From positions 62,001-126,000 of the forward strand of contig JAOAIJ010000052.1 of assembly GCA_026414765.1 (NCBI GenBank): DNA of 64,000 nt, read 5' to 3'. Source of the stretch: Clostridia bacterium. Lineage in GTDB: Bacteria > Bacillota > Clostridia > Acetivibrionales > DSM-27016. The notes below the pieces were generated by a model. The model was not told where the DNA came from. It did no database searches and saw only the letters and a list, made by a program, of their open reading frames with translations. The position numbers were made by a program, and so were the translations under genes. The stretch's first letter is position 1, and each line of letters begins with the position of its first letter. Positions 36,771 through 64,000 of this stretch are shown here, piece after piece.

Positions 36771-36896
36771 GGGCAGAGTAGGAGATTGCGCGTCAAGTGC
36801 CAGATGGACGGGAAGTTGCCACTGGACGAAAAATTCTTTTGATTATGATACAAGAATTTGCGGTGCAGTTTTCGCATTCCGCTGCCACAAAAGGGA
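36771..36896 (+). promoter_or_regulatory. Tetrahydrofolate (THF) riboswitch
   Basis: Bases GGGCAG (36771-36776) and CTGCC (36892-36896) can form the closing stem. Between them lie the conserved THF-riboswitch blocks AGAGTAG, GCGTCAAGTG, GGGAAGTTG-CCAC, GACGAAAA and TTTGCGGTGCAG, then CGCATTCCGCTGCC, in the right order. A variable stem (AAATTCTT/AAGAATTT) is also present. It is followed after ~200 bases by folT, the usual target of this class in Clostridia. I cannot draw the expression platform with confidence; the folT ribosome-binding site is exceptionally strong. Confidence 0.85.
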
Positions 36897-54865: not shown

Positions 54866-55297
54866 TCAAATATTTACATAATATGACAAAAACGTCGATT
54901 TACAGTATAATATGTTTTACAAATCCTTTAAGAAATCTACTTGTACAGATTGTAAAATTATAATATAATTTCCTTGTATAAAATGTCGAAATGTAAATAA
55001 ATGAAAATGATATTTAGTTGAATGGTTTTATCGGCAGATATATGAAAAAGCATATTAAAGTATGAGACATATTTGATTTTGTGAAGCAATTAGTAAATTA
55101 TAATAAATGTTTTATGTTTATTAATTAATGTTTTTTATAAGTGCAATGTTCGAATTCTTAAATATTAACTAATGAAGAAAACCAAGAGCGGAGGCTTCCT
55201 TGGTAATTTATTATTTAATCAAATAGTATAGGAAGCAGTATAGTAGTGCCCTGAAATTGTAGTTCTTGGGAAAAAACAAAAACAAGGGGGCTAATTG
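54866..55297. other. Long AT-rich leader of the HD-GYP gene
   Basis: No gene or riboswitch is visible. A TGTCGAA match to the Spo0A box core lies at 54984-54990. A hairpin (ACCAAG/CTTGGT around a GC-rich loop) lies near 55178-55205, between the likely promoter region and the HD-GYP start, and could be an attenuator. The conserved c-di-GMP riboswitch blocks were looked for and not found. Confidence 0.35.
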
Positions 55298-56806
55298 ATG
55301 AGGAGATCGGTTAAAGAAATATCTTCAGAGTACAAGATTGCAATACTTGATGATGAGACAGGTATAATTGATTCCGTGTCCCTTCTGCTTAAACGTGCAG
55401 GGTATGGCTTCAAAGGTTTTAATGACCCCTTTGAAGCATTGGAAGAATTGCGTAACGAGCATTATGACATAATTATTCTGGATTATTTAATGGACATTAT
55501 GCATGGAGACGAGGTAGTAGAAAAAATCAGGGAGTTTGACCAGGGAATTTACATACTACTTCTTACTGGACACAAAGATATAGCGCCACCCCTTGAGACG
55601 CTAAAAAAACTTGATATACAAGGATATTGCGAGAAAAGTGACAATTTTGACCAATTGATTTTACTTATAGAATCAGGAGTTAAAAGTGTCAGCCAGATGA
55701 GGCGTATAAGGAAATTTGAGGATGGATTGAATAAGATTTTGCAAGCCGTTCCGAAGATTTATCAGCTAAAGCCTATTAGCAGCATACTTGAAGAGATACT
55801 AGTCGGAATAATGCCGCTTGTAAACAGTAAAAATGCTTTTATACTGGATGATACAAATAGCTCGAATAATGACAATGAAAGAAAAGGCATATTTAAAGGC
55901 ATAGGAAAATTTGATGTAAGCCTTGACGAGTTTATGTCCATGATAAATCCTGATTTTCTGGCGAATATAGGATATGCCAGGGAGAGTGGGAAAGTAGTTA
56001 ACCTTAAGGAAGGAGCTATTTTTCCTCTGGTAAATGAATTCCAGAAAGCTATGGGTGTCATATATATTGAAACCAGTGAACTGGGTGAGGGAATACAGTT
56101 GCTGGATTTATACTCAAAACAGGCTGCATCATCCTTAAGCAATGCATTTCTTCATTCACTTGTTAATATGAAGAATGAAGAGCTGAATAAAACTTATGAA
56201 GAGCTGAAAACAAGATATATGGATACAATAGAAGTACTCAGACTAGCTGTTGATGCTAAGGATGTGTATACGAGAGGGCATTCTGACAGAGTAGCTTATT
56301 ATGCTGAGAGAATCGGTAAGGCCTTTGGCATGCCTGAAGAAGAATTGGAAAAGCTCAGGCTTGGAGGAGTATTTCATGATGTAGGAAAAATCGGAACTGC
56401 CGACGATATCCTTTTTAAAACAGAGAGTCTGGATGACAGGGAGTATGACGAGGTTAAGAAACATACCCTAAAGGGTGCACATATATTATCAGCTGTATCA
56501 ATGTTTAAGGAAGTAATTCCGCTTATAAAGTGTCATCATGAGAGAGTTGACGGAAAGGGATATCCTGACCGGCTGAAGGGGGAAGAGATTCCATTCCTGG
56601 CGAGAATATTATCAGTTGCTGATGCTTTTGATGCAATGACTTCAGACAGGCTATACAGATCCAAATTGAATTTGGAAGAAGCCAAAATGCAGTTGGTCGA
56701 AGCGTCAGGTACACAGTTTGACAGTTGTATAGTTAATAAATTTATTAAGTTATTAGACTCTGAATATGAAAATATGCAGAAAGAAATCAAGCATACTTTC
56801 AAATAG
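55298..56806 (+). CDS. Response regulator with HD-GYP domain, probable c-di-GMP phosphodiesterase
   Basis: A 502-residue two-domain regulator. The receiver domain (~12-130) has the acidic pair D18-D19 and phospho-acceptor D62. A GAF-like linker spans ~140-300. The HD-GYP domain (~310-490) contains H360-D361 in F-H-D-V-G-K-I-G, the second metal cluster H413-H414-E415 and G421-Y422-P423 with D418-G-K-G before it; all catalytic positions are present, so c-di-GMP hydrolysis is expected. ATG 55298 after AAGGGGG is the start. No histidine kinase is adjacent. It lies 353 bases before the PilZ-NRPS gene, on the same strand. Confidence 0.92.
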   Translation: MRRSVKEISSEYKIAILDDETGIIDSVSLLLKRAGYGFKGFNDPFEALEELRNEHYDIIILDYLMDIMHGDEVVEKIREFDQGIYILLLTGHKDIAPPLETLKKLDIQGYCEKSDNFDQLILLIESGVKSVSQMRRIRKFEDGLNKILQAVPKIYQLKPISSILEEILVGIMPLVNSKNAFILDDTNSSNNDNERKGIFKGIGKFDVSLDEFMSMINPDFLANIGYARESGKVVNLKEGAIFPLVNEFQKAMGVIYIETSELGEGIQLLDLYSKQAASSLSNAFLHSLVNMKNEELNKTYEELKTRYMDTIEVLRLAVDAKDVYTRGHSDRVAYYAERIGKAFGMPEEELEKLRLGGVFHDVGKIGTADDILFKTESLDDREYDEVKKHTLKGAHILSAVSMFKEVIPLIKCHHERVDGKGYPDRLKGEEIPFLARILSVADAFDAMTSDRLYRSKLNLEEAKMQLVEASGTQFDSCIVNKFIKLLDSEYENMQKEIKHTFK

Positions 56807-57004: not shown

Positions 57005-57032
57005 TTGACATTTTTCGACTAAATTATATAAT
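57005..57032 (+). promoter_or_regulatory. Consensus promoter of the PilZ-NRPS gene
   Basis: Perfect TTGACA (57005-57010) and TATAAT (57027-57032) with a 16-bp spacer, 127 bases before the NRPS start. A TTCGACT in the spacer is one mismatch from the reversed Spo0A-box core, so repression by Spo0A-P is conceivable but weakly supported. Confidence 0.7.
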
Positions 57033-57159
57033 ATCTTTTGAAATTATAAAAATTTTGTAGAAAAATGTAATATTTTAAAGAAAATTAGGGAATTTGTACC
57101 CATGATTATATATAAAACGGATAAATGCTATGTTTAATCAGATTATTAGGGGAGAAGAA

Positions 57160-60100
57160 ATGATAGGCAACAAAGAAGTGAAAAATCAGAAGTATATTCT
57201 TGAATATTTTAGGAACTTATCAAAGCAAAAAAGTATTCCAGTATCAGTCAGTTGTATGGGAAATAAAACTGATGCTGTTATGCACTTTACGAGTAAGAGA
57301 GGCAGTGAACCTTCAGTAAAAATTGATGATATACTGTTTCCAAGATTAATTCCGGGTAATGAGATCAATATTGAAATATCTAATGAGGAGGATATTTATT
57401 TATTTAGAAGTGTAGTGATATACTCTCTGGAAAATAATTATGACATAAAATTACCTTCAGCTCTCAGTATTTCTTTCAGAAGGCAGGTGCCCAGGTACAG
57501 AATCGGAAAAGAAGATACTGTGCTTTTAGGCATCAAAGGAAAAAACAAAAATTTCAGAGTGAATGATATAAGTATAAAAGGATTATCCTTTGTGTCAGAT
57601 AAAGCTTCTTATGAAAAGGATCAATTCATAAAAAATGCTTTTATAAAAATTCCCCACACTGCAGGTATACATGTGGATGGAACCGTGTGCCACCATAGGA
57701 TTGACGGGAATAACGAACATATCTATGGAATAAGCATAAATAATATTAATTGGAGCGAGCAGCTTGTGCTATTCAATTATGTCTACAAAAATCTGTACCC
57801 AAAGTTAAGGTCTTTTAATGAATTGTCTGTGGAAAATATTAGCAGTATTTTCAAAAATGCTAGTAGCGCCTATATTGAGAGCAACGAAAAAACCGGATAT
57901 GATTACGGTAAGTTTATCAACACATTTAACAAACTATATTCCAAATCTTCTATTTCATCTGGGCTAGCATACATAAAAGAAGACATGGTGTATAATCTCG
58001 GAGTTGCTATGAGGATATACAACAGGACTTTCTATGGTTATCAGCTGTATTCGCTGCCTGAAACCAAACTGGATCCTGAAATCAATAATGACGTATATAT
58101 TGGATTGGCGGACAATATGCTAAGCAATCGCTGCTTTGAATACTATATTTCATATATAACAAGGGAATTCAAGCAGCAGAGGGATATGTTCAGCAGCATA
58201 TCGAATGTAATTTCCGATCAGGCTAAATTTTGTTTTGATGCGATATACAATATCGAATATTTATGCGAGGAAAAAGAAAAAAGGGCAGATAATTACGGCT
58301 ATTCTTGTGAGCCCTGCAGGGATATCAGCAGCTTCATCGGATTCTGTAATGAAGCACTATCTCCTTTGGAGATTGGTGCATACGGTTACTGTGAAGAGCA
58401 GCTGGATCAATCTGAAATCAAAGAGGCTTTTGGGGTGTTTGACATAACTATGGACAGAAATCTATGGAGGGTAGTGAAGGATGGTATAGGTATTGCTTAT
58501 GCTGTAGCTGAATCGTACCCCGAGGGAATTAATCTTGATAGGATGCATGATGTCTGCAGGATTTATTTTTTAGAAGAAAATCCGGAAATCGATAAAATTC
58601 TCGGAACACTCGTGGTAGAATTGTCTGAATATTATGAAAGTATGGGTAAGAAAAGATTTAGTATATGTTTTAAACTCGGAAGTCAGGTTATTGAAAAAAG
58701 TAAAGTAAGGGAGACAGGTAAAATAACAACGATAGGGAGAGTTATGGCAAACCGCAAGGGCATGCTTGAATATAAAAAGCTTTTGGCAGGAAATATGGTC
58801 CATATTCCAAGGTATTACAACCTGACTCATCCTCAGCTGGCAATATGGTTTACGGAAAAGGTCTACCCCGGAACAAATTTTGCCAATATTACAAGTACAG
58901 TAAGGATTAAAGATAAAATTGATTTTAAACTGCTAAACAGGGCAATAAATTTGGTAGTTATGAAAAATGATGCGCTTAGAATGAGGTTTGTAGAAATAGG
59001 TGGTGAGCCACGCCAGTTTGTTTCAAGCTATGAGTATATAAACAGCGATATTTTTGAATTTGATGGACAATACGGCAAAGAGGAATTTTCTAGATGGACT
59101 GAAAATATGAATATTAAGCATTTCAACATAATAAATTCTGATTTGTTTTATTTTGCACTTTTTAAACTTGATAATAATGAAGGTGGATTTTATATCAAAA
59201 TGCACCATTTGATTTCTGATGCATGGTCAATGTCTGCTTCTATTAGCAAAATAGTAGAATACTATACAAAGCTGAAGAAAGGAATTTCCGTAAGTAAATT
59301 AGATAAACCGTCTTATATAGACTATATTTCAAGTGAAGAAAGATTTCTTGATTCTTACAGGTTTCAAATGCAAAAACAATTCTGGAAAAACAAATTTGAG
59401 AGCATTCCGGAATTAATAAGCCTAAAACCTGCAGCCGCGGTTTGTCGGGAAACAAAGGCAGAGAGAAGGACTTTTAAGATTACAAAAGAACTCACATCTG
59501 CAATAAATTCTTATAGTAGGGAAACCAAAAGCTCGGTATTCTCTGTTTTTCTATCGGTTTTTTCCATATATCTGAATAGAATAACTTCGATGGAGGATAT
59601 GGTATTGGGGTCTCCGATCCTGAACAGATCTGGTTCCAGAGAAAAAGAGATGGCAGGAATGTTTGTTAGTGTAGTTCCTGTACGGTTGAATGTTGATACA
59701 GATATTGAGTTCAATAAATTTGTAACAGGTGTATCCCGGGAGTGGATGCTTGTACTGAAAAATCAGAAATACCCTTTCAATCTGATTCAGAAAGACTTCA
59801 GGGAAAGGCACGGTATAAGTGATAATTTATATGATATAGTACTTTCGTTCCAAAATGCAGAACTTGATAAATTAGAAGCAGATTATGATGTCAAATGGGA
59901 ATTTAACGGTCATCAGACAAATTCTCTGAGTATTCATATAAACGACAGAGACAACGAAGGGCAGTATAAGGTCGATTTTGATTACCTTGCAGACGCTTTT
60001 TCCCAAAGCGAAATCGAATACATGTTTTACCATATGATGAATCTTCTGACTGACGCTGTAAAAAATCCATCCAAAAAGCTTCATCAGCTGCAGATGTTAT

Positions 60101-63100
60101 CTGAAGATGAGAAATATAAAATTTTGTATGAGTTCAACAGGACGGAAGCAGACTATCCGAAAGATAAGACCATACATGAAATTTTTGAAGAACAGGCAGA
60201 GTGTACACCCGATAATATTGCAGTGGTGTATAAGGACAGACAACTGACATACAGAGAGCTTAATGAAAAGGCAAATCAGCTGGCTTGGGTACTGAGAGGT
60301 AAGGGGGTCGGGCCTGATACCATAGTTGGGATAATGGTGGAACGTTCACCGGAGATGATAGTTGGAATAATCGCAATCCTGAAGGCAGGAGGCGCGTATC
60401 TGCCTATTGATCCGGAATATGCGGAAGATAGAATAAACTATATGCTTAAAGACAGCAACGCTATCATGTTGCTGACCAGGGAAGCGTATTGCCATATCCC
60501 GGCTTTTAGCGGAGAAACACTATATTTTGATAAATATAGCGAGAATAATATCTCAGTGGGAAATATTGAAAAGATAAACAAACCTGAAAGCATTGCATAT
60601 GTGATATATACTTCGGGTTCTACCGGCAAACCAAAAGGTGTCATGGTTGCAAACAGATCGCTTGTCAACTTGTGCTGCTGGTATAGGAAAGAGTTTGGTA
60701 TTGAAGAGAATTCAAAAGTATTGATGATGATACCTTTCTGTTTTGATGCCTCAGTAAAGAACATTTTAACGCCCCTGATTGCTGGAGGACAATTATTGTT
60801 AGCACCGGTAGGGTATTTTAATGCAAATACTGTCAGAAAATTAATTTTTGAAAAGGGAGTAACGCTCATAAATTGTGTACCTAGTGCAATTTATCCGGTG
60901 ATTGAGCTGGCTGGGGGAGATAATAATTACCGGGAACTTAAAAGTTTAAGATATCTTCTTTTAGGTGGCGAGTCAATGAGTATTTCTAAAATTAAGCCGT
61001 GGCTTGACAGCTCTGACTGCAAATGCATACTTGGAAATATCTATGGACCGACTGAATGCACCGATATATCCGCTTACTATTTATTGGAGAAAGAGAAGGA
61101 TAAGAATATTAAAACGGTGCCTATAGGAAGACCTATCCATAATTCAAAGCTGTATATTTTAGGAAAGCATAACCAAATACAGCCTATTGGCGTAGCAGGT
61201 GAGTTATGCATATCTGGTTCGGGTATTTCTATGGGGTATATTGGAAAAGAGAGGCTCACGGCGGAGAAATTTGTACAAAACCCATTCATAGCAGGAGAAT
61301 TAATGTACAAAACAGGGGACTATGCAAAATGGCTGCCTGATGGGAATATTGAGTTTTTGGGCAGAATAGACGGGCAGGTAAAGATACGGGGATTCAGGAT
61401 AGAACTTGGAGAAATAGAAAGCAGGCTGTTGAAGCAAAAGAGCATAAAAGAGGCTGTAGTTGAGGCTAGGGAGGATGAGGACGGTAAAAAATACCTGTGT
61501 GCGTATTACGTTTCAGACACAACACTTTCTGTTTCGGACCTGCGTACATTTCTTCTGCAGAAATTACCGGACTATATGGTGCCGGCTTACTTCATCAGAA
61601 TGGATAAGCTTCCGCTGTCTGCAAACGGCAAGATTGACAGGAAGGCTCTGCCTGAACCTGATAAAGATGCAAATAGCATTGAAAGCTATGAAGCTCCTGC
61701 AAATGAAACAGAAGAGAAGCTTGCAGAGGTTTGGAAGGGGATACTTGGACTCAGGAGGGTCGGCGCAGGGGACAACTTCTTCGAACTCGGAGGAGATTCA
61801 CTAAAAGCCATAACTCTTATTTCTAGTATATATAAGGAGTTTGGTGTTGAAATACCTATTAGCGTTATTTTTGAAAACCCAGTACTGAAGGAACTGTCAA
61901 AACAAGTTGGAAATAGTAATATAAAGCATTTTTCTTCAATTAAAATTGCAGAGAAAAGTGATTACTATCCGGTTTCATCCTCACAAAAACGTATGTTTGT
62001 ACTTAATGGATCAAATGCTGACTCCATCAGCTATAATATGCCGGGTGCAATTCTGATCAAAGGCAGACTTGATTCAGAGCACTTAAGACATGTACTTGAA
62101 AAAATAATAGAAAGACATGAATCCTTCAGGACTTCTTTTCATTTATTAGACGGTGAGGTAGTACAAAAGGTAAATGAGAAGGTCAAGCTTACCTTTAAAA
62201 GTATGAAAATTGCCGGGTCGGAGATCAGTACAGAAGTCAGAAAATTTGTCCGTCCTTTTGACCTGAGTAAGGCTCCACTTTTTAGGGCTGAACTTATAAG
62301 CGAGTCCGAAGAAAAGAACATAATGTTGATAGACATGCATCACATAATATCTGACGGAATTTCTTGCAGCATTCTTATAAAGGAAATTGCAGATCTGTAC
62401 GCCGGAAAGAATTTGCCGGAACTAAAACTGCAGTATAAGGACTATACCGTATGGCAGAAGGAATTTCTCAAGTGTGAGGAAATAAAGGCACAAGAGGCTT
62501 ATTGGATAGAAAAACTTTCAGGTGAGCTTCCGGTGCTCAATATGCCTATGGATTACAACCGACCTCCCATACAGAGTTTTGAAGGCGACAGGATAAGCTT
62601 TGCTCCCGATGATGAATTGACCCGCAGATTAAAGCAGCTTGCGGCTGATACGGGTACAACATTATATATCGTGCTGCTTGCTGCTTATAATGTATTGTTG
62701 TGCAGATATACAGGCCAGGAGGATATTGTAATTGGTTCTCCTGTCGCAGGGAGAGGGCATTCTGATCTTGAAAATGTGGTTGGAATGTTTGTCAATACTC
62801 TTGCTATGAGAAATTATCCTTCCTATGACAAAACCTTTATGGATTTTTTATCGGAAGTAAGACAAAATGCCATAGGAGCATATGAAAATCAAGATTACCA
62901 ATTTGAGGAGCTTTTAGAGAAACTGAATGTAAAAAAAGATTTGAGTAAAAATCCTTTGTTTGATACTATGTTTACGCTTCAAAATATCGATGTATCAGAG
63001 TTGAGGAGAGACAACCTTGTTTTTTCTCCCTATGAGCTTGACTGCAAAACATCAAAGTTTGATTTCTCCATCCAGGCTGTGGAAAAGGCAGAAGCGATTA

Positions 63101-64000
63101 ATTTCAATCTGGATTATTGTACAGGGCTGTTCAGACACGAGACTATGGAAAGATTCAAAAATCATTTTCTGAACCTGTTGAGTGATATTGTCAGAAGGCC
63201 TTCTTGCAAGATTTGTGAACTCGAGATTATGACAGAAGAAGAAAAAAACAGGCTGCTATATGAATTCAACAGAACTGAAGCAGAGTATCCAAAAGAAAAG
63301 ACCATACACGAGCTTTTTGAGGAACAGGTAGAGCGGACTCCTGATAATATTGCAGTGGTGTATCAGGACAGACAGCTCACTTACAAAGAACTTAATGAAA
63401 AGGCAAATCAGCTGGCGTGGGTACTGAGAGGTAAGGGTGTCGGGTCTGATACCATAGTTGGGATAATGGTGGAACGTTCACCGGAGATGATAGTTGGAAT
63501 AATGGCAATCCTGAAGGCAGGAGGTGCGTATCTGCCTATTAGTCCGTCATATCCGGAAGAGAGAATCGAATATATGTTGAAGGACAGTAGTATAAACATT
63601 GTACTGACCTGTGGGAATACATTAAGCTGTGCAGATTTTAGCGGCACTATTCTGGATTTATTGAGAGAAGAGTCATACTCGGCGGGATTAGGAAACCTTG
63701 ATAGGGTGAATACACAAAAGGATTTAGCATATATAATCTATACCTCGGGATCAACCGGAAAGCCTAAAGGGGTAATGGTCTGCCACCAGAGTGTAGTAAA
63801 TGTACTTTTTGCCCTTCAGGAGAAGTATCCGCTTCTGGAATCGGATTCCTTCCTCCAAAAAACAACGTATACATTTGATGTATCTGTTGCAGAAATATTC
63901 GGATGGTATTTAGGCGGAGGAAGGCTTATACTACTTGAAGAAGGAGCAGAAAAAGAGCCCCGGGCTATACTGAAAGCTATTGACAAGTATGACATAACTC
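57160..64000 (+). CDS. PilZ-GNAT-like-NRPS fusion (C-A-T-C-A...), continues past window end
   Basis: One frame of 2280 codons, open at the window end, starting at ATG 57160 after GGGGAGAAGAA. Residues ~1-105 look like a YcgR-type N-terminal domain. Residues ~106-220 are PilZ with both c-di-GMP motifs: R108-x-x-x-R112 and D136-x-S138-x-x-G141. Residues ~225-545 are helical then GNAT-like. A condensation domain follows (~553-980) with H682-H683-x-x-x-D687 but Ala for the usual Gly. A1 (~985-1500) has core A3 at ~1150-1161; provisional specificity residues D,A,K,N,L,G,I,D,I,K match no code I know. The carrier domain has S1547 in L-G-G-D-S. C2 (~1600-2020) has intact H1727-H-x-x-x-D-G. A2 starts at ~2028 and is cut off. 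No epimerase is seen in module 1. Product unknown. Confidence 0.92.
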   Translation, partial: MIGNKEVKNQKYILEYFRNLSKQKSIPVSVSCMGNKTDAVMHFTSKRGSEPSVKIDDILFPRLIPGNEINIEISNEEDIYLFRSVVIYSLENNYDIKLPSALSISFRRQVPRYRIGKEDTVLLGIKGKNKNFRVNDISIKGLSFVSDKASYEKDQFIKNAFIKIPHTAGIHVDGTVCHHRIDGNNEHIYGISINNINWSEQLVLFNYVYKNLYPKLRSFNELSVENISSIFKNASSAYIESNEKTGYDYGKFINTFNKLYSKSSISSGLAYIKEDMVYNLGVAMRIYNRTFYGYQLYSLPETKLDPEINNDVYIGLADNMLSNRCFEYYISYITREFKQQRDMFSSISNVISDQAKFCFDAIYNIEYLCEEKEKRADNYGYSCEPCRDISSFIGFCNEALSPLEIGAYGYCEEQLDQSEIKEAFGVFDITMDRNLWRVVKDGIGIAYAVAESYPEGINLDRMHDVCRIYFLEENPEIDKILGTLVVELSEYYESMGKKRFSICFKLGSQVIEKSKVRETGKITTIGRVMANRKGMLEYKKLLAGNMVHIPRYYNLTHPQLAIWFTEKVYPGTNFANITSTVRIKDKIDFKLLNRAINLVVMKNDALRMRFVEIGGEPRQFVSSYEYINSDIFEFDGQYGKEEFSRWTENMNIKHFNIINSDLFYFALFKLDNNEGGFYIKMHHLISDAWSMSASISKIVEYYTKLKKGISVSKLDKPSYIDYISSEERFLDSYRFQMQKQFWKNKFESIPELISLKPAAAVCRETKAERRTFKITKELTSAINSYSRETKSSVFSVFLSVFSIYLNRITSMEDMVLGSPILNRSGSREKEMAGMFVSVVPVRLNVDTDIEFNKFVTGVSREWMLVLKNQKYPFNLIQKDFRERHGISDNLYDIVLSFQNAELDKLEADYDVKWEFNGHQTNSLSIHINDRDNEGQYKVDFDYLADAFSQSEIEYMFYHMMNLLTDAVKNPSKKLHQLQMLSEDEKYKILYEFNRTEADYPKDKTIHEIFEEQAECTPDNIAVVYKDRQLTYRELNEKANQLAWVLRGKGVGPDTIVGIMVERSPEMIVGIIAILKAGGAYLPIDPEYAEDRINYMLKDSNAIMLLTREAYCHIPAFSGETLYFDKYSENNISVGNIEKINKPESIAYVIYTSGSTGKPKGVMVANRSLVNLCCWYRKEFGIEENSKVLMMIPFCFDASVKNILTPLIAGGQLLLAPVGYFNANTVRKLIFEKGVTLINCVPSAIYPVIELAGGDNNYRELKSLRYLLLGGESMSISKIKPWLDSSDCKCILGNIYGPTECTDISAYYLLEKEKDKNIKTVPIGRPIHNSKLYILGKHNQIQPIGVAGELCISGSGISMGYIGKERLTAEKFVQNPFIAGELMYKTGDYAKWLPDGNIEFLGRIDGQVKIRGFRIELGEIESRLLKQKSIKEAVVEAREDEDGKKYLCAYYVSDTTLSVSDLRTFLLQKLPDYMVPAYFIRMDKLPLSANGKIDRKALPEPDKDANSIESYEAPANETEEKLAEVWKGILGLRRVGAGDNFFELGGDSLKAITLISSIYKEFGVEIPISVIFENPVLKELSKQVGNSNIKHFSSIKIAEKSDYYPVSSSQKRMFVLNGSNADSISYNMPGAILIKGRLDSEHLRHVLEKIIERHESFRTSFHLLDGEVVQKVNEKVKLTFKSMKIAGSEISTEVRKFVRPFDLSKAPLFRAELISESEEKNIMLIDMHHIISDGISCSILIKEIADLYAGKNLPELKLQYKDYTVWQKEFLKCEEIKAQEAYWIEKLSGELPVLNMPMDYNRPPIQSFEGDRISFAPDDELTRRLKQLAADTGTTLYIVLLAAYNVLLCRYTGQEDIVIGSPVAGRGHSDLENVVGMFVNTLAMRNYPSYDKTFMDFLSEVRQNAIGAYENQDYQFEELLEKLNVKKDLSKNPLFDTMFTLQNIDVSELRRDNLVFSPYELDCKTSKFDFSIQAVEKAEAINFNLDYCTGLFRHETMERFKNHFLNLLSDIVRRPSCKICELEIMTEEEKNRLLYEFNRTEAEYPKEKTIHELFEEQVERTPDNIAVVYQDRQLTYKELNEKANQLAWVLRGKGVGSDTIVGIMVERSPEMIVGIMAILKAGGAYLPISPSYPEERIEYMLKDSSINIVLTCGNTLSCADFSGTILDLLREESYSAGLGNLDRVNTQKDLAYIIYTSGSTGKPKGVMVCHQSVVNVLFALQEKYPLLESDSFLQKTTYTFDVSVAEIFGWYLGGGRLILLEEGAEKEPRAILKAIDKYDIT
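60127..60408 (+). repeat. Near-identical tract in A1 (copy 1 of 2)
   Basis: This 282-base stretch at the start of A1 matches 63259-63540 at the start of A2 almost base for base, with an unbroken identical run of more than 50 bases including third codon positions. The rest of the two A domains is clearly diverged. Confidence 0.85.
63259..63540 (+). repeat. Near-identical tract in A2 (copy 2 of 2)
   Basis: Counterpart of 60127-60408, offset by exactly 3132 bases (1044 codons). Identity is highest around the segment encoding E-R-S-P-E-M-I-V-G-I and then drops. Confidence 0.85.

Follow-up and report, generated by a model that had tools for sequence, protein, structure and literature searches.

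A PilZ and tandem GNAT-fold module heading a nonribosomal peptide synthetase in Clostridia: a candidate c-di-GMP-responsive initiation unit

Cyclic di-GMP (c-di-GMP) steers motility, glycan export and gene expression, and the control of nonribosomal peptide synthetases (NRPSs) is generally attributed to transcription and substrate supply. The described proteins closest to the N-terminus of the synthetase reported here are YcgR, MotI (DgrA) and MrkH, which share with it the same N-domain and PilZ fold and the same order of motifs; those are stand-alone regulators (of flagella or transcription), whereas here the pair heads a synthetase. CurA-type GNAT domains load an adjacent carrier protein, and CurA-like loading domains resemble the present case in that the assembly line opens with a GNAT fold; here, however, no carrier lies between the GNAT and the condensation (C) domain, and the GNAT is tandem. 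As a short assembly line with a terminal thioester reductase, the synthetase is similar to the gut dipeptide-aldehyde NRPSs (ruminopeptin type) and to AusA, which begins with an adenylation (A) domain and not with a C domain, and we know of no PilZ or GNAT N-terminal module in either of these. Dipeptide aldehydes have been reported from gut bacteria (PMC12327764).

PixB of Myxococcus xanthus is a PilZ-GNAT protein, in which PilZ domains are linked to a GNAT domain, and it binds c-di-GMP in vitro although its PilZ domains lack the conserved Ser (PMC8316039). It differs from the present protein in having two PilZ domains, a single canonical GNAT and no NRPS, and in its role in motility and development, while here one PilZ domain precedes a tandem GNAT-like region. 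Among the open-licence literature we found no paper on a PilZ-NRPS fusion (PilZ with NRPS or with condensation domain), in agreement with the preliminary description of this DNA, which knew of no standard architecture of this kind. To our knowledge, the parts are of known kinds, and the PilZ-GNAT-NRPS combination and its gene cassette are new.

Architecture of the synthetase

The window is the whole stretch of 64,000 nucleotides that was analysed (positions 62,001 to 126,000 of contig JAOAIJ010000052.1, from a Clostridia bacterium), and the synthetase gene continues past its end (Table 1). There is no stop in the frame from either 57130 or 57160 up to the window end, and on contig C52 the complete protein measures 3037 aa from the ATG at 57160, or 3047 aa from the in-frame ATG at 57130. 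The former is the likely start, because it is preceded by a good Shine-Dalgarno sequence (AGGGGAGAAGAA) and because homologues begin there. The sigma-70 element upstream is a consensus match and not proof of function, but with so strong a promoter consensus in front of the synthetase itself, control by transcription may be as important as control by c-di-GMP. No c-di-GMP riboswitch was found upstream: across the window and four related loci, Rfam models gave only a THF riboswitch and a 5S rRNA. The THF riboswitch lies at 36772-36886 of the window (plus strand; RF01831, 80.8 bits). The source genome is rich in NRPSs, with 31 condensation-domain matches, among them a second NRPS on the same contig (G000:C52:9728-14260), and with matches on other contigs.

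The N-terminal 233 aa match the Pfam PilZ model with 28.9 bits (E = 1.6e-6; cut-off 22.5), and PilZ is also above the cut-off in the six-frame genome search (26.6). Against the full-length protein the score is 21.4, slightly below the cut-off, so that the domain can escape a simple annotation of the complete sequence. Counted from 57160, both PilZ motifs sit exactly where the preliminary description had placed them (R108 and R112 of RxxxR; D136, S138 and G141 of DxSxxG). It had also proposed a YcgR-like segment ahead of the PilZ domain, and this too is borne out: over the first 220 residues, the predicted structure retrieves in Foldseek the MrkH-c-di-GMP complex (E = 1.9e-13) as well as MotI and YcgR, the YcgR-like N-segment included. 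The AF2 model of the whole N-terminal module (12 sequences) has a pLDDT of 81, the sequence profile of the module matches MrkH (YcgR-like) chains (E = 7.7e-5), and a PDB sequence search with the module returned PilZ relatives only. RxxxR is retained in 14 of the 14 homologous modules that have a PilZ barrel, despite very divergent sequences, and the same number keep D or N in the second motif. The Ser of DxSxxG is substituted in SKW158 and in six of eight stand-alone modules (see below); the window protein has the complete motif set. From these residues we infer that the PilZ domain is a receptor that would bind c-di-GMP.

Between the PilZ domain and the first C domain lie about 330 aa with no match in Pfam or NCBIfam. 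Modelled alone (AF2, 16 sequences; pLDDT 83, pTM 0.85), this region retrieves tandem GNATs in Foldseek (E = 6e-10 to 1e-9), with a histidine N-acyltransferase nearest in shape (PDB 9EMP; TM about 0.5), and a search of a viral fold library gave a GNAT/NMT-like fold and nothing further. The overall tandem-GNAT shape is shared with 9EMP and other tandem GNATs, but sequence identity is ~9%, and the R/QxxGxG/A acyl-CoA binding loop of usual GNATs is absent in 16 of 16 homologues. Because the loop is missing in every homologue, acyl transfer is possible yet may not occur, and we class the region as a GNAT-like fold only. The preliminary description had joined PilZ directly to the NRPS; the single uninterrupted frame stands, but the joint is not direct, as the tandem GNAT fold lies between. 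Of the domains that it had named for a search of the frame, PilZ (on the N-terminal part) and Condensation (twice) were found in Pfam, and GNAT appeared in the predicted structure only.

On the full-length protein, Pfam identifies two Condensation, two AMP-binding and two PP-binding domains and a terminal NAD_binding_4 domain (2.2e-45), i.e., a C-A-T-C-A-T-reductase order. Every NRPS motif that was looked for was found (two A3, two YGPTE, two GGDS, two HHxxxD, and the TGATGYLG (Rossmann) and YVKSK (YxxxK) motifs of the reductase). No carrier domain is found by Pfam upstream of the first C domain, which therefore occupies the starter position, and whose donor would have to come from solution (acyl-CoA or similar). 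With such an acyl starter, the product would be a short, possibly lipidated, peptide, probably an N-acylated dipeptide released as an aldehyde. The specificity regions of the A domains differ so strongly among homologues that no product is predicted from them. The best NCBIfam match of the NRPS part is AusA, below that model's cut-off.

Table 1. Features of the synthetase gene and its neighbours (window positions unless a locus is given).
Feature	Position	Strand	Evidence
Response regulator, receiver-DUF3369-HD-GYP phosphodiesterase, directly upstream of synthetase	55295..56806	+	Response_reg 4.8e-16, DUF3369 2.4e-24, HD_5 8e-34
Sigma-70 consensus TTGACA-16-TATAAT, perfect, upstream of synthetase	57005..57032	+	Consensus scan, 12/12
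PilZ-GNAT-GNAT-C-A-T-C-A-T-R synthetase gene	57160..63999, onward past window end to L023:10273 (C52:128273)	+	ORF, Pfam
YcgR-like N-terminal domain	57187..57447	+	AF2 model, Foldseek to MrkH/YcgR/MotI over about 220 residues
PilZ domain	57451..57789	+	Pfam PF07238, Foldseek
RxxxR motif (RQVPR)	57481..57495	+	Motif check
DxSxxG motif (DISIKG, begins at residue 136)	57565..57582	+	Motif check
Tandem GNAT fold without a Pfam family or an RxxGxG/A CoA loop	57802..58797	+	AF2, Foldseek, motif check
First condensation domain (HHLISDA), starter position	58813..60129	+	Pfam, PDB sequence matches to C domains, motif
Adenylation domain 1	60184..61632	+	Pfam AMP-binding and AMP-binding_C, motifs
Carrier domain 1 (FFELGGDS)	61714..61902	+	Pfam, motif
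Condensation domain 2 (HHIISDG)	61957..63258	+	Pfam; tyrocidine synthetase 3, E 3.7e-136
Adenylation domain 2, beginning; T2 and terminal thioester reductase (TGATGYLG, YVKSK) past window	63316..63999	+	Pfam, motifs
Multi-TM histidine kinase with HAMP-like segment, directly downstream of synthetase	L023:10291-12294		

Relatives and neighbouring c-di-GMP genes

The preliminary description had pointed to close relatives as a check on the fusion, and within the order the module is joined to an NRPS in seven further genomes, which are the SKW182 and SKW158 MAGs, Ruminiclostridium cellobioparum and its subspecies termitidis, Pseudobacteroides cellulosolvens, Acetivibrio alkalicellulosi and a Bacillota MAG. 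The window protein, SKW182 and SKW158 have a two-module, reductase-terminated layout in common, the R. cellobioparum synthetase consists of one module and a reductase, and the remaining fused relatives have one module and a thioesterase. A stop or frameshift hidden near the junction, which had been named as a possible source of error, did not turn up; the junction region aligns unbroken in the seven other genomes, and a frameshift or assembly join is excluded on that ground. That the fusion is a sequencing or assembly artefact has a negligible probability, given an identical junction in seven independent assemblies, one of which is a single-contig genome, and nothing was found in favour of it.

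Modules without the synthetase (about 530-575 aa; here termed stand-alone) occur at four loci in the order, in three genomes of another order of the class, and in one genome of another class. Outside the order, no fusion was seen in samples of 391 genomes of the class and 398 of the phylum. The full-profile search covered about 1,000 genomes, and the sub-alignment scan reached only members with the C-domain start motif, 28 of 35 loci having that motif alone. A PilZ search of 58 genomes of the order gave only small frames among the best matches listed; the known fusions rank lower than these, so that the list neither adds further fusions nor speaks against them. In the module tree, all fused members are separated from all stand-alone members with 99/98 support, and one change is needed in 100% of the bootstrap trees, so that the tree is consistent with a single fusion event.

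The preliminary description did not mention that the synthetase gene is flanked by c-di-GMP signalling genes, with an HD-GYP regulator upstream and a histidine kinase downstream. For the regulator, the closest NCBIfam model is NF053512 (response regulator c-di-GMP phosphodiesterase), with a score below the cut-off; the HD-GYP catalytic residues (HD..GK, H, HHE, GYP) are all present, and are intact in nine aligned homologues. A kinase and an HD-GYP regulator also adjoin the fused gene in SKW182, SKW158, A. alkalicellulosi and MAG bin149, and the stand-alone PilZ-GNAT gene in four genomes (G238, G173, G149 and G792). G021, G238, G173 and G792 encode no DUF3369 protein other than this adjacent regulator. 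In G054 the neighbour of the stand-alone gene is a single 7TM-HD-GYP protein, no kinase or HD-GYP regulator lies beside the gene in P. cellulosolvens (both copies) or in G005, and the locus of G019 is truncated at a contig end.

Several further arrangements were seen at these loci. At L104 (4304-6052, minus strand), a HisKA_7TM region is fused straight to an HD-GYP domain beside a stand-alone PilZ-GNAT gene, and in MAG bin149 a separate small PilZ protein is encoded just upstream of the PilZ-NRPS gene (L067:8446-9009, plus strand). Loci L107, L108 and L109 (another order) and L110 (another class) each have a cassette of a stand-alone PilZ-tandem-GNAT gene, a kinase and a receiver-DUF3369-HD-GYP regulator.

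The cassette kinase is of the 7TM type in L107 and L108. This three-gene PilZ-tandem-GNAT/kinase/HD-GYP cassette seems to be undescribed. Stand-alone members from a second order and a second class are accompanied by this kinase and regulator pair, and the tree divides them cleanly from the fused members. The probable history is therefore a single fusion, in which an NRPS was added to the PilZ-GNAT effector gene of a c-di-GMP cassette (effector, kinase and HD-GYP regulator) that already existed.

R. cellobioparum is a special case. In both of its genomes (L063:9569-15181 and L065), PilZ is cleanly absent from RxxxR to its end, and the frame runs on into the NRPS, with the YcgR-like part and most of the GNAT region retained. 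No DUF3369 protein was found genome-wide, and in the place of the regulator, upstream of the NRPS, are LytTR, HDOD and plain receiver proteins. The joint absence of the PilZ barrel and the DUF3369 regulator supports a link between the two, but is suggestive only, since it amounts to one evolutionary event. It also shows that the synthetase can survive without PilZ, and this counts against the explanation that we prefer.

Proposed mechanism and alternatives

Our preferred reading, to which we assign a probability of about 0.58, is that the first half of the synthetase is a c-di-GMP-responsive initiation unit that would bind the nucleotide and gate the assembly of a short peptide. That c-di-GMP controls the synthetase, as the preliminary description had inferred, is a sensible reading given the adjoining genes for a phosphodiesterase regulator and a histidine kinase. 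In the proposed sequence of events, the membrane histidine kinase would sense a cue and phosphorylate the neighbouring receiver-HD-GYP protein, which would then degrade c-di-GMP locally. The YcgR-like/PilZ pair would read the c-di-GMP through RxxxR and DxSxxG and shift its position against the tandem GNAT fold, and this shift would open or close initiation, where the C domain in starter position would couple an acyl group with the first amino acid. The GNAT region leads straight into this C domain, and would be well placed to help or hinder uptake of the donor. The two modules would then build the short chain, from which the terminal reductase would free the aldehyde. PixB is a precedent in that a protein of PilZ-GNAT type can bind c-di-GMP. 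Several observations speak against the scheme: the Ser of DxSxxG is substituted in SKW158 and in most stand-alone modules, the GNAT part has no CoA loop, and the P. cellulosolvens fusion lacks both neighbours.

The gate need not reach the NRPS. PilZ-GNAT proteins without an NRPS occur beside the same kinase and HD-GYP genes, which suggests that the unit that was fused is PilZ plus GNAT, and that c-di-GMP may act on the GNAT part and not on adenylation. It is thus conceivable, though we consider it unlikely, that c-di-GMP acts only on a GNAT-fold domain with a job of its own (e.g., modification of a protein or small molecule), the NRPS having been joined for co-expression or channelling and remaining ungated; PixB, as a PilZ-GNAT protein without an NRPS (PMC8316039), and the retention of the GNAT part where PilZ was lost in R. 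cellobioparum would both fit. Such a role is harder to reconcile with a GNAT part that has no CoA loop, and with a fusion kept in one piece over very long branches, which suggests mechanical coupling.

The YcgR and MotI families work by binding partners, and since both are among the closest folds and the neighbouring kinase is multi-TM, the PilZ domain might instead localise the synthetase (to the membrane, the motor or a kinase partner) with no control of catalysis. We regard this as improbable, because there is no partner motif and because a tandem GNAT between PilZ and a C domain in starter position fits more readily into an initiation unit. More improbable still is that the N-terminal module is a relic, functionless and decaying, left over from a stand-alone gene that lay upstream of the NRPS. 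The deletion of the PilZ barrel in R. cellobioparum and the degraded second motif of SKW158 are what a relic might look like, but every other member, at 24-35% identity, still has RxxxR and the two GNAT halves, and the fused homologues are free of stops; across such divergence a relic would have lost its open frame.

A more far-reaching extension of the gating scheme, which we offer as speculation, is that the genes form a self-contained loop. Here the PilZ-GNAT effector, alone or extended by the NRPS, would make a lipophilic signal under c-di-GMP control, and the multi-TM kinase would sense this signal and reset c-di-GMP through the HD-GYP regulator.

Significance for c-di-GMP signalling and peptide synthesis

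If the preferred reading is true, a second messenger would gate the assembly of a natural product directly, through a receptor built into the synthetase, with the phosphodiesterase and the kinase adjoining. Should the signalling loop hold as well, the protein would be the first NRPS gated by a second messenger, and an autoinducer synthase of a new kind. The fusion is present in cultured clostridia (A. alkalicellulosi and P. cellulosolvens), and R. cellobioparum constitutes a natural control without PilZ. The gate might offer a way to switch silent gene clusters of clostridia, and the distribution of its parts suggests that a PilZ-GNAT/kinase/HD-GYP cassette has gone unrecognised in two classes of one phylum.
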